This document shows positions 3,190-11,268 of a DNA stretch of 64,000 nt, piece after piece; the first letter of the stretch is position 1; each line of letters opens with the position of its first letter. The position numbers were made by a program, and so were the translations under genes. Origin of the DNA: an uncultured Eggerthellaceae bacterium. GTDB taxonomy: Bacteria; Actinomycetota; Coriobacteriia; Coriobacteriales; Eggerthellaceae. The stretch covers positions 62,001 to 126,000 of the forward strand of contig CANSWY010000002.1 in the NCBI GenBank assembly GCA_947650915.1. Direction: 5' to 3'. The notes under the pieces are model-generated. The model did not search any database. It had not been told where the DNA came from and saw only the letters and a program-made list of their open reading frames with translations.

Positions 3190-3323
3190 GATCGCTCCTC
3201 TTCTTTTGAGACAAAAGCTTCGCCGCACAGAGTACGGTTTCAGGACATTATAAGGATTGAAGAATGAAGGATGGACGCCGCTTTGTTATAAATGCACCCA
3301 AAACCATCATGGAAAGGACGCAC

Positions 3324-4748
3324 ATGGAACGCGAAACCGCCTGGAAGAAGTACAGCGCCACCGATCTTGACGCCGTGAACGCGCTGGCCGAAGACTACAA
3401 GGCGTTCATCACTGAGAACAAGACGGAGCGTGAATGCTGCGAAGCCGCTGTGGAAGCAGCCCGCGCGGCGGGGTACGTGGCGCTGGAAGACGCCATCGCC
3501 GCAGGCACGGCGCTCAGCGCTGGAGCCAAGGTGTACGCAACCTCCCACGACAAGGCGATCATGCTGGTGCAACTGGGCGCGCTTCCCCTGGAGATGGGCG
3601 CCAACATCCTGGGCGCGCACATTGATTCGCCACGGCTGGACGTGAAACAGAACCCGCTGTATGAGAAGGACGGCTTCACGCTGCTGGACACGCACTACTA
3701 CGGCGGCATCAAGAAGTACCAATGGGTGTCCATCCCGCTGGCGCTGCGCGGCGTGGTGGCGAAGAAAGACGGCACCGTGGTGCGCGTGAGCATCGGCGAT
3801 GGGCCGGATGACCCGGTGTTCTGCGTGACGGACCTGCTGCCGCATCTGGGCGCGAAGCAGATGGAGAAGAAAGGGTCTGAGGTCATCGAGGGCGAGGACC
3901 TGGACATCCTGGCGGGCAACCAGCGCACGGCAGCTGCCGAAGATGCTGGAGGAGATGCGAAAGGCGCGAACAGCGCATCGGACAAGGATGCCGTGAAGGC
4001 GTTCGCGCTGACGCTGCTGGAAGAGCGATACGACATCAACGAAGAGGACTTCCTCTCTGCTGAACTTGAAGTGGTGCCCGCCGGAGCCGCACGCGATCTA
4101 GGCTTCGACCGCAGCATGGTCATCGGCTACGGCCAGGATGACCGTGTGTGCGCCTACACGTCCCTGCGCGCCCAGCTGGCCTTGGCGAACGCGTCGCTCA
4201 AGCGCACCGCCATCTGCATCCTGGTGGACAAGGAAGAGATCGGCAGCGTGGGCGCCACCGGCATGGAATCCGCCTTCTTCGAGAACACGCTGGCAGAAGT
4301 CATGGCGCTGGCCGGCGAAGAGGGGCATCTGCGCCTGCGCCGCGCGCTCAAGGCGTCACGCATGCTGTCCTCTGACGTGTCCGCGGGCGTGGACCCGGCC
4401 TATGGCAGCGTGTTCGAACCGAAGAACTCCGCCTATCTGGGGTGCGGCCTGGTGTTCAACAAGTACACGGGCGCGCGCGGCAAGAGCGGCTCCAACGACG
4501 CTCGCGCCGAATACGTGGCGCACCTGCGCCGCGTGATGGATGAGGCCAACGTCACGTTCCAGACGGCGGAATTGGGCCGCGTGGACGCGGGCGGCGGCGG
4601 GACCATCGCCTACATCCCCGCACGGTTCGGCATGGACGTGATCGACAGCGGGGTGCCGGTGCTCTCCATGCACAGCCCGTGGGAGGTCACCAGCAAGGCG
4701 GACATCTACGAAGCGGAGCGCGGCTACGAGGCATTCCTGCAGGCCTGA
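3324..4748 (+). CDS. M18 family aminopeptidase
   Basis: This 474-residue cytosolic zinc aminopeptidase of family M18 (aspartyl aminopeptidase/ApeA-like) removes N-terminal residues from peptides. Metal-site motifs are visible: GAHIDSPRLDVKQNP near residue 95, DKEEIGSVGATG near residue 300, and MHSPWEV near the C-terminus. The DVSAGVDPAYG segment is also typical. AAAGGA six bases before the ATG at 3324 decided the start; upstream in-frame ATGs at 3264 and 3309 are less likely. A weak TATAAA lies at 3287-3292. The gene is divergent from rubrerythrin. Substrate preference cannot be read from the sequence. Confidence 0.92.
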   Translation: MERETAWKKYSATDLDAVNALAEDYKAFITENKTERECCEAAVEAARAAGYVALEDAIAAGTALSAGAKVYATSHDKAIMLVQLGALPLEMGANILGAHIDSPRLDVKQNPLYEKDGFTLLDTHYYGGIKKYQWVSIPLALRGVVAKKDGTVVRVSIGDGPDDPVFCVTDLLPHLGAKQMEKKGSEVIEGEDLDILAGNQRTAAAEDAGGDAKGANSASDKDAVKAFALTLLEERYDINEEDFLSAELEVVPAGAARDLGFDRSMVIGYGQDDRVCAYTSLRAQLALANASLKRTAICILVDKEEIGSVGATGMESAFFENTLAEVMALAGEEGHLRLRRALKASRMLSSDVSAGVDPAYGSVFEPKNSAYLGCGLVFNKYTGARGKSGSNDARAEYVAHLRRVMDEANVTFQTAELGRVDAGGGGTIAYIPARFGMDVIDSGVPVLSMHSPWEVTSKADIYEAERGYEAFLQA

Positions 4749-4880
4749 CCAGGACGGGCAGATCATCTGACAGCTGCGCGCTCAAAGTAAACGGCGCGGT
4801 TTCGCCCGCTCATCACGCCAGCAACCCTGGGCGCGAAACGCTTCCAAAACCGCTCAGCGCGGCGTATCGTTCCGCAGTGA

Positions 4881-5052
4881 AAAGGGGCTCCTCCTTCCCC
4901 CTTTCCTTGATCGGAAACCGCCCCCTCGGTTTCCACCGTGAAGACCTCCTCCCCACGGTCTTCACCCGCCGGACGGGAGGCATGCACACCCCCCGTCCGA
5001 CCTCGTTCGGAGGGCGCTTATCCCCCTTGAAGCGCCCTCCGAACTGTCTTTT
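4881..5052 (+). ncRNA. Candidate structured RNA: five hairpins with C-rich loops
   Basis: The 388-base gap between two plus-strand genes has no coding signal but holds five nearly contiguous hairpins. Stems/loops are 4881-4887/4898-4904 (loop CTCCTCCTTC), 4913-4920/4927-4934 (loop CCCCCT), 4938-4946/4957-4965 (loop TCCTCCCCAC), 4970-4977/4992-4999 (14-base loop) and 5005-5019/5030-5044 (loop ATCCCCCTTG). The last stem is 15 perfect base pairs, followed by CTGTCTTTT, which suits a terminator. C-rich or CCUCC loops resemble the actinobacterial 6C RNA idea, but there are more hairpins and I cannot assign a known class. Loop 1 is complementary to AAGGAGG at 5124-5130, the binding site of the next gene. 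Strand is inferred from the T-run; the minus strand would show GGA-type loops. Confidence 0.55.
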
Positions 5053-5136
5053 GGCTATCAAACCGGCAACGCTTTCGCAGGCCAGGCGCATGCCTGACCC
5101 GTTTTCTCATATAACAAGGCAGCAAGGAGGCTGACC

Positions 5137-5832
5137 ATGAAGAACGCGATACCTGATACTACGAACGTGACCGCGCCGAAGCTGACCGACGTGCGCCTGG
5201 TCTCAGACGGATGGCTCAAGAAGTACGTGCTGACCTACCGGCTTGAAGGCGGAGAGACCTTCGAATACGAAGCCGTGTCCCGCAAGGGGCTTGAGGAGTA
5301 CCGCGCCGCGCTGGCGGCGAACGCCGCGGGAGAGGAGCCGCAGACGGATGCGGTGTGCATCGTGCCCATCCTGCCGGACGATTCCATCCTGCTGATCCGC
5401 GAGTTCCGTTATCCCGTGAACGCCTGGGTGATCGCATTCCCGGCAGGCTTGATAGAGCCGGGCGAGACGCTGGATGAGTGCATCGACCGCGAACTGCGCG
5501 AGGAGACCGGCCACCGCGTACGGACGGATCTGGAAGGCAAGGCCATCATCCCGCTTCCGCAATCCGGCCATTCGTCCGTTGGCATGACCGAAGAGAACGT
5601 GCGGGTAGTGATCGCCTACGTGGAGCCGGACGGAGAAGCCCAGCTGTCTGACCATGAGCTGATCCAGGTGTTCCCCCTGGCGCGCGAAGACGCGGGGCGG
5701 TTTTTGGATGAGAACCGGGACCTGATCGGCACGCGCTGCCAGCTGCTGCTGGAATCCGTGCGCCGGACGAATGTGCTGCGCAAGCGGCTGGAGCTGGCGC
5801 AGCACCCCATCACCAGCCGCGATTACGCCTGA
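5137..5832 (+). CDS. Nudix hydrolase (ADP-ribose pyrophosphatase type)
   Basis: This 231-residue hydrolase probably splits nucleoside diphosphate sugars such as ADP-ribose into AMP and sugar phosphate. The complete Nudix box (GLIEPGETLDECIDRELREE, continuing TGH) spans about residues 102-124 and supplies the metal-binding glutamates. An N-terminal beta domain precedes it (DGWLKKYVLTYRL), as in NudF-like enzymes. AAGGAGG six bases before the ATG is near ideal. The five-hairpin RNA lies just upstream and could be its leader. The 3' end is followed by repeat A2, convergent with yerC. The exact substrate is unknown. Confidence 0.88.
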   Translation: MKNAIPDTTNVTAPKLTDVRLVSDGWLKKYVLTYRLEGGETFEYEAVSRKGLEEYRAALAANAAGEEPQTDAVCIVPILPDDSILLIREFRYPVNAWVIAFPAGLIEPGETLDECIDRELREETGHRVRTDLEGKAIIPLPQSGHSSVGMTEENVRVVIAYVEPDGEAQLSDHELIQVFPLAREDAGRFLDENRDLIGTRCQLLLESVRRTNVLRKRLELAQHPITSRDYA

Positions 5833-5850: not shown

Positions 5851-5995
5851 GATGTGCAGAAGAGACGTTCCAAATCGCACATGGAGATGGCCTTCCGGAT
5901 GTGCAGAAGGGACGTCCCAAATTGCACATAGGAACAGCCTTTCAGTGCAGAATCTCCTTTCCTATGTGCGATTTGGAACGTCCCTTCTGCACATC
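5851..5995 (-). repeat. Family A element A2 (reverse orientation)
   Basis: The core spans 5898-5995 with an extra 5' arm from 5851. It is the only copy clearly inverted at every mark: the loop reads TTTCAGTGC (complement of GCACTGAAA), and the GTTCC variant is in the right arm. Both arms carry the CAGAAG/CTTCTG version rather than CAAAAG/CTTTTG. The last base abuts the yerC stop codon (5996). Confidence 0.9.
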
Positions 5996-11102: not shown

Positions 11103-11268
11103 ATGCGCAAAAGGATCAGCCTTCCGGATGTGCAAAAGGGACGTTCCAAATTGCACATAGCAGAAGTTCATGCGCACGGGGAGACTGATCCTATGTGCAA
11201 TTTGGGACGTCCCTTTTGCACATCAGGCAACCTCGCAGGTGCAATTTGGGACGTCCCTTTTGCCCATG
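11100..11268 (+). repeat. Family A element A4 (four arms, first decayed)
   Basis: A truncated first arm overlaps the MFS stop codon. The core is 11127-11224. After the spacer GGCAACCTCGCAGG a fourth arm ends near 11268. It separates convergent MFS and glnN genes, 16 bases before the glnN stop. Confidence 0.9.

Follow-up and report, generated by a model that had tools for sequence, protein, structure and literature searches.

A 64,000-nucleotide stretch of DNA from an uncultured Eggerthellaceae bacterium (hereafter the window; positions 62001-126000 of contig 2 in a 1.98 Mb genome of 50 contigs) carries, between an aminopeptidase gene and a Nudix gene, an element of five hairpins, four of them with C-rich loops, the observation of which is confirmed by our analysis. 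Positions 4877-5052 most likely represent the five-hairpin form of a small RNA family, here called family A, which according to sequence comparison occupies one syntenic place in seven genera of the Eggerthellaceae. The family is conserved and apparently undescribed, and would belong to an already known functional kind, that of the C-rich anti-Shine-Dalgarno RNAs. As a whole, the data are best explained by a stand-alone RNA whose loops would serve as anti-Shine-Dalgarno seeds for repression free of Hfq, an interpretation that we regard as probable. Its structure, its conservation, its independence from neighbouring genes and the predicted accessibility of its C-rich segments are supported by the sequences compared; transcription, pairing, targets and regulator are inferred. 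Genera, genomes and loci are labelled g, G and L below, the genus of the window being g1.

Structure of the element and its copy in a sister species

A first-pass annotation, made from the letters of the window only, had described five hairpins over positions 4881-5044 with gaps of 3-8 bases. All of them are present, each occurring exactly once, with spacings of 8, 3, 5 and 6 bases (Table 1); the four C-rich loops are as described there (CTCCTCCTTC, CCCCCT, TCCTCCCCAC and ATCCCCCTTG), and the last stem does have 15 pairs. The predicted fold of positions 4860-5075 reaches -95.7 kcal/mol (z -6.8); 200 dinucleotide shuffles gave -65.9 +/- 4.4, and not one of them was as good. A search over both strands of 670 kb of the bacterium's own genome, made up of the window, contig 3, 60 kb of contig 2 and 411 kb of contig 1, yielded 99 C-rich-loop hairpins; the element, with four, is the only site having at least two of them within 180 bases, by a criterion drawn up after the finding was known.

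The same element is present in G001, the sole other genome of genus g1 in our set (75% DNA identity, E 1.7e-23), with a fold z of -7.35. Comparing the two structures by eye, H3 differs by T-A to A-T and A-T to G-C changes, H5 by T-A to C-G and G-C to A-T, and H2 by one G-T change, while H4 is wholly replaced. The C-rich loops are retained in the sister (TTCCTCCTCCTT, CACCCT, CTTCCCCA and ACTCCCCCTG). The conservation of stems and loops that had been expected of relatives is thus borne out, with paired changes in the stems and C-rich loops kept. A search with the Nudix protein gave a single match, in CANODU010000022.1 of an uncultured Eggerthellaceae metagenome-assembled genome (81%).

Two other identities were considered and rejected. 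A repeated genomic element is not indicated, as the genome holds no second DNA copy and the remaining matches, of 14-31 bases, are chance-like. A coding region is unlikely because the alignment to the sister is gapped by 2, 1, 3, 1 and 1 bases, within or at the end of the element, which a reading frame would hardly tolerate. A search for a phage relation of the element gave no match.

Conservation of family A in the Eggerthellaceae

In genera g5, g18 and g14, the Nudix orthologues are preceded by shorter RNA-like elements. Their layout comprises a -10 hexamer (TATACT or a close variant), a tract left unpaired (for instance TTTCCTTTCCTCCTTCTCTCC) and two hairpins, the second being the terminator (GGCGGCTCCCC...GGCCGCC) with a T-rich tail behind it. 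A covariance model (R1) was built from eight of these sequences in an unfitted MAFFT alignment, and the covariance search in related genomes that had been proposed as a check retrieved with it 11 more Eggerthellaceae genomes at E ≤1.6e-4 (from g6, g26 and g27, and a second g14 genome). Weak matches (E 0.003-0.013) appeared in six genomes; two of them, in g1, pointed to an RNA beside cysK that is described below, and the others were not counted. A second model (R2), run on 395 genomes of the order Coriobacteriales, matched 29 genomes at E ≤0.01, and the 21 with E <1e-6 are all Eggerthellaceae, from six genera; as 19 of these 21 are training sequences and only G060 and G064 stand outside, the independent test is the one made with R1.

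The alignment of 19 sequences, which is fitted to the model, has 96.3% of its cells paired and both-sided changes in 9 of 15 pairs; its covariation of 0.389 falls to 0.055-0.121 when the partners are slid, which abolishes the signal. Both-sided changes were also seen in 6 of the 15 pairs of the unfitted MAFFT alignment of eight sequences. The number of hairpins varies by genus, from 2-3 in the six further genera (two-hairpin forms occur in g5, g18 and g14) to five in the window. The sister copy scores significantly with the family model (29.5 bits, E 5e-5).

Family A has one strong R2 match per genome, except for a suspect second one in G112. On contig 15 of this g18 genome, A and B RNAs (L106, L175; family B is introduced below) lie adjacent in the arrangement of g6. 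The contig is probably contamination from a g6 genome, and its match was excluded from our counts.

Promoter and upstream repeats

Transcription from the plus strand, which the first-pass annotation had favoured, agrees with the T-run and with promoter features that lie on this strand in the relatives. In most of 21 aligned loci, a box GGTAAC(C/T) ends 38-39 bases before a putative -10 hexamer, mostly TATACT; the corresponding unit, at 39 bases, is AGCAAC in the window and GGCAAC in the sister, and the g14 locus L120 has no recognisable box. The two loci of g27 were omitted from this alignment for want of a convincing -10. When 19 of the 21 promoters were tested for repeat lags (leaving out L120, for its unrecognisable box, and L041, which is near-identical to L126), the strongest lags in the upstream 47 bases were 22 and 11 (z 4.2 and 3.0 versus column shuffles), the units resembling TGTCACGGGAA CATGGACGCTT ATTTACGCGAC GGTAAC. 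Taken by itself, g6 shows a strong signal at lag 22 (z 3.0) and not at lag 11 (z 0.8). OmpR/PhoB-type response regulators typically have direct repeats with an 11-base spacing as their sites, and a regulator of this type, bound at the 11-bp repeats, would probably switch transcription of the RNA.

The phosphate (PHO) regulon was considered because the 11-bp repeats resembled PHO boxes and because in G014 a PstS-type gene (L078:1882-2544, plus strand) is divergent to the family A RNA, the promoter region being common to both. This candidate was rejected: a matrix of pstS promoters recovers pstS promoters and not those of the RNA (18 loci, bounded p 0.04 to 1), only a few loci being suggestive, the best at a bounded p of 0.04.

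The pstS genes gave two observations of their own. YTTTAC-like units 11 bases apart are arrayed before pstS in L159, L160, L163, L165, L167 and L168, and are possibly the PHO box of the Eggerthellaceae. Near-identical PstS-type proteins of 306 amino acids, with similar upstream DNA, are found in L161, L162, L164, L165 and L166, in genomes of different genera (G000, G018, G062, G006 and G005), which suggests recent transfer or cross-contamination of assemblies.

C-rich loops as candidate pairing sites

Loops were counted in 23 elements (the window's and 22 others) from seven genera. One of the motifs CCC, CTCC, CCTC or TCCT occurs in 53 of 61 hairpin loops, as against 508 of 1217 in composition-preserving mononucleotide shuffles. 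According to the predicted folds, C makes up 56% of the loops and 42% of the unpaired parts, G 5% and 3%, respectively, and U 46% of the unpaired parts. Redundant C-rich motifs are thus carried in loops and single strands and kept while the stems vary, as in the Hfq-independent anti-Shine-Dalgarno class of RNAs. We searched for complements of loop hexamers upstream of 386 gene starts (out of 387 gene-like open reading frames in the 670 kb, with starts assigned by a crude rule) and, as a control, of 386 internal ATGs. Complements of loop 1 lie upstream of 72/386 gene starts versus 10/386 internal ATGs, and those of loop 3 upstream of 30/386 versus 8/386, both with these crude starts. By their complementarity, loops 1 and 3 are thus suited to Shine-Dalgarno sites as a class, which does not single out any mRNA as a target.

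We propose that the C-rich loops are anti-Shine-Dalgarno seeds, redundant with one another, which would pair with the G-rich ribosome-binding sites of several mRNAs, block their translation and lead to their decay. This would proceed without Hfq, the gene of which was not found in 21 genomes of the order. The last hairpin might serve as both terminator and seed.

Several observations weigh against this interpretation. Complements of loop 2 show almost no preference for Shine-Dalgarno sites (4/386 versus 0/386) and those of loop 5 none (11/386 versus 7/386), and, since any C-rich loop matches a purine-rich Shine-Dalgarno site and the starts are crude, the counts name no targets. By consensus, both promoter and terminator are weak: a scan for consensus sigma-70 promoters found none at the element, the T-run that the first-pass annotation had placed behind the last stem is modest (TGTCTTTT), and a scan for intrinsic terminators, which takes loops of at most 8 bases when that of H5 has 10, reported none there. 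The 11-bp repeats are degenerate in g1 (two sequences; z 1.4 at lag 11 and 1.6 at lag 22). Finally, the window's own element reaches 14.6 and 13.8 bits with the family models, which is not significant, so that it is assigned to family A by its DNA match to the sister copy, by synteny and by the spacing of the promoter.

Multiplied loops might instead raise the capacity of a decoy or scaffold for a C/U-binding protein (for example Rho, a cold-shock or a KH protein), with mRNA pairing being secondary. This would fit the redundant and nearly G-free loops and unpaired tracts, a hairpin number that differs among genera as it does in protein sponges, and the behaviour of loops 2 and 5. Against it speaks the recurrence of CCUCC/UCCUCC, since a protein that binds C generically would not require motifs complementary to Shine-Dalgarno sites; in addition, we know of no C-rich-loop protein sponge in bacteria without Hfq or CsrA. 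We therefore consider a protein decoy unlikely, and prefer anti-Shine-Dalgarno seeds as the function of the loops.

Gene neighbourhood and independence of the RNA gene

In 20 loci with flanks, the gene order is GuaB - PepM18/Rbr - RNA - (Nudix) - YerC - CimA - IlvE, with local rearrangements. The sister has the Nudix gene downstream, as in the window, and rubrerythrin instead of the aminopeptidase upstream; the rubrerythrin/aminopeptidase pair is inverted in one species relative to the other, leaving the element unaffected. The upstream gene is Hsp20 in g27 and g26, and in g6 no tested neighbour gene lies within 1.5 kb upstream of the RNA. Nudix follows the RNA in 9 of the 20 loci, at a variable distance, and is missing there in 11: in all nine loci of g6, which have a convergent YerC as next gene, and in both of g27, where a Fic-domain gene is downstream (Pfam on one of the two). 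The frequent lack of Nudix, the convergent next gene in nine loci and the differing upstream neighbour argue for an independent gene. Comparison of the loci thus points to a free-standing gene with its own promoter and terminator and no single tied neighbour, and a stand-alone small RNA gene, rather than a Nudix leader, is the reading best supported by these alignments.

The same comparison bears on the idea that the hairpins are the 3' untranslated region of the upstream gene, or a set of terminators or insulators, with no function in trans. In the window, the element does lie downstream of the M18 aminopeptidase gene on the same strand and ends in a terminator-like hairpin. Yet the gene upstream changes from locus to locus, a conserved -10 and spaced upstream box immediately precede the RNA, and plain terminators would not retain C-rich loops through stem changes, which makes this explanation improbable. 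We hold it to be very improbable that the element is a transcribed leader or attenuator of the Nudix gene, loop 1 pairing with the Nudix ribosome-binding site, as the first-pass annotation had suggested for translational control. Nudix is indeed on the same strand, with 93 bases between the end of the H5 stem and its start in the window, it lies downstream in nearly half of the loci, and the noted match of loop 1 to its AAGGAGG is real; this match is, however, not specific, AAGGAGG occurring 157 times in the 670 kb, and the absence of Nudix beside the RNA elsewhere, the convergent YerC of g6 and the variable gap speak against a leader. A minus-strand RNA sponging CsrA, also raised there on account of the GGA-rich reverse complement of the loops, is not supported: a search for CsrA in 21 genomes, the window's own among them, found no such gene (control genomes gave matches), and T-run and promoter features are on the plus strand in relatives.

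A second, related RNA family

The loci of g6 carry a second C-rich RNA on the strand opposite to family A, seen by motif in 7/9 loci at a distance of ~0.3-0.4 kb in six and 1.9 kb in one, and detected in all nine by a covariance model of its own (R3). In this family B, CACCUCCUCUCUUCUUGUUUUA hardly varies, the hairpin bears the loop UCUCCUCGUCU and the loop of the terminator is of the CCCC type; g6 has a nearly invariant segment CACCUCCUCUCUU (loci L108-L114 of g6, L179-L188 and others); the loci tested gave no Rfam match. R3 finds it in 42/138 Eggerthellaceae genomes at E ≤0.05, and in 30/395 genomes of the order at E ≤0.001, 30/30 of which are Eggerthellaceae. A related RNA lies downstream of cysK in the window's own genome (contig 30; L088 1105-1229, minus strand) and scores E 1e-4 to 3e-5 with R1 and R2 in local searches and only E 0.023 with R3. 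From these model searches, family B is a second, related C-rich RNA family, more widespread in the Eggerthellaceae than A.

A wider interpretation, which we offer tentatively and consider rather doubtful, would see in families A and B a system of multivalent mimics of the 16S anti-Shine-Dalgarno tail. Family A would have gained hairpins (2, 3, then 5), most of them adding a seed, with a response regulator reading the 11-bp repeat array; the form in the window would be the most elaborate, and the system the main post-transcriptional layer in Eggerthellaceae.

Gut bacteria of the Eggerthellaceae type have been studied for drug and polyphenol metabolism. Searches of the open-access literature, as far as titles and abstract openings tell, found no small RNA described for Eggerthella, Adlercreutzia, Gordonibacter or Coriobacteria. 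With a second, related family beside it, a C-rich RNA that is conserved and bears a promoter offers a concrete entry to RNA regulation in gut bacteria for which neither Hfq nor CsrA was found in 21 genomes of the order. It would probably be an independent further case of C-rich loops used as anti-Shine-Dalgarno seeds in bacteria without Hfq, and a hairpin number that changes between genera opens the redundancy of seeds to test. The surprise is moderate, the interest lying in the Eggerthellaceae host and in the variable number of hairpins.

Features of the locus and other repeats in the window

Table 1. Features of the small RNA locus, in window coordinates.
Feature	Position	Strand	Remarks
M18 aminopeptidase gene	3264-4748	same as element	upstream neighbour in the window
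Putative upstream regulatory region	4780-4825	+	last unit AGCAAC (4820-4825), at 39 bases upstream of the -10; GGTAAC in relatives, with more units at 11-bp spacing
Putative -10 hexamer TATCGT	4865-4870	+	from the alignment of 21 loci; relatives TATACT/TATATT/TATAAT/TACACT
Putative small RNA gene	4877-5052	+	5' end placed from the -10, 3' end from the T-run
Hairpin H1	4881-4904	+	7 bp, loop CTCCTCCTTC; kept in the sister species, loop there TTCCTCCTCCTT
Hairpin H2	4913-4934	+	8 bp, loop CCCCCT; sister loop CACCCT
Hairpin H3	4938-4965	+	9 bp, loop TCCTCCCCAC; two both-sided pair changes in the sister
Hairpin H4	4971-4998	+	loop CATGCACA (predicted fold), not C-rich; the sister has another stem and loop sequence in its place
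Hairpin H5, terminator stem	5005-5044	+	15 bp, loop ATCCCCCTTG; two both-sided pair changes in the sister
T-rich tail TGTCTTTT	5045-5052	+	weak; no report from the terminator scan
Nudix gene	5137-5832	same as element	Pfam; downstream neighbour in the window

The window also contains a pair of short palindromic repeats spanning ~96 bases, with ends like ATGTGCAGAAGGGACGTCCCAAATTGCACAT, at 724-819, 5899-5994, 11128-11223, 20086-20181 and many more places. We counted 35 half-sites in the 64-kb window, compared with 41 over 411 kb of contig 1 and 19 over 135 kb of contig 3. This looks like an element of the repetitive extragenic palindrome/bacterial interspersed mosaic element (REP/BIME) or miniature inverted-repeat transposable element (MITE) type that is unusually dense in the window.

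Comparison with known systems

No Rfam family reaches its cut-off for the element, nor for the loci of families A and B that were tested. The best sub-threshold match of the region is ar14 (RF02344; 26.8 bits, E 0.0032, versus a gathering score of 58.8). The corresponding alpha-r14/NfeR1 ("cuckoo") RNAs of alphaproteobacteria are described as having several hairpins with CCUCC-type anti-Shine-Dalgarno loops on stems of differing sequence, and as Hfq-independent (PMC10746234). The element likewise has several hairpins bearing C-rich loops on unlike stems; however, where these RNAs have three identical CCUCCUCCC motifs, the element has five hairpins with four unlike C-rich loops (2-3 hairpins in other genera), and phylum, synteny and promoter differ, with a score far under the cut-off.

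The first-pass annotation had thought of a trans-acting RNA of the 6C kind. A 6C-like mode of action is indeed the best supported, but membership is not: the Rfam 6C model (RF01066) matched 0/60 genomes of the order, including the window's own, in a search whose control gave a match, below the cut-off, only in Corynebacterium glutamicum. In B11, a 6C RNA of the Actinomycetota, two loops repress mRNAs with G-tracts in their 5' untranslated regions, in an actinobacterium lacking Hfq (PMC10470900). The element shares with it the C-rich loops and a host in which Hfq was not found, while its putative pairing with G-tracts is a matter of sequence complementarity; it differs from 6C/B11 in architecture, in its loops and in its gene neighbourhood.

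LhrC of Listeria is G-poor (PMC4132741), and its layout is similar to that of the two-hairpin forms of family A (g5, g18 and g14). In contrast to the multicopy LhrC, family A has a single strong match per genome and GC-rich stems, and Rfam indicates no sequence relation. For RoxS/RsaE, FsrA and CsfG of the Bacillota, a further report describes C-rich regions that pair with mRNAs and can be captured by a G-rich sponge RNA (PMC8216469); C-rich segments are also what we propose, by analogy, for mRNA pairing in the element, which differs from these RNAs in architecture and phylum and has no Rfam match at cut-off. Taken together, these analogies suggest that the element most likely works like alpha-r14/NfeR1, LhrC or 6C/B11, while standing outside those families.
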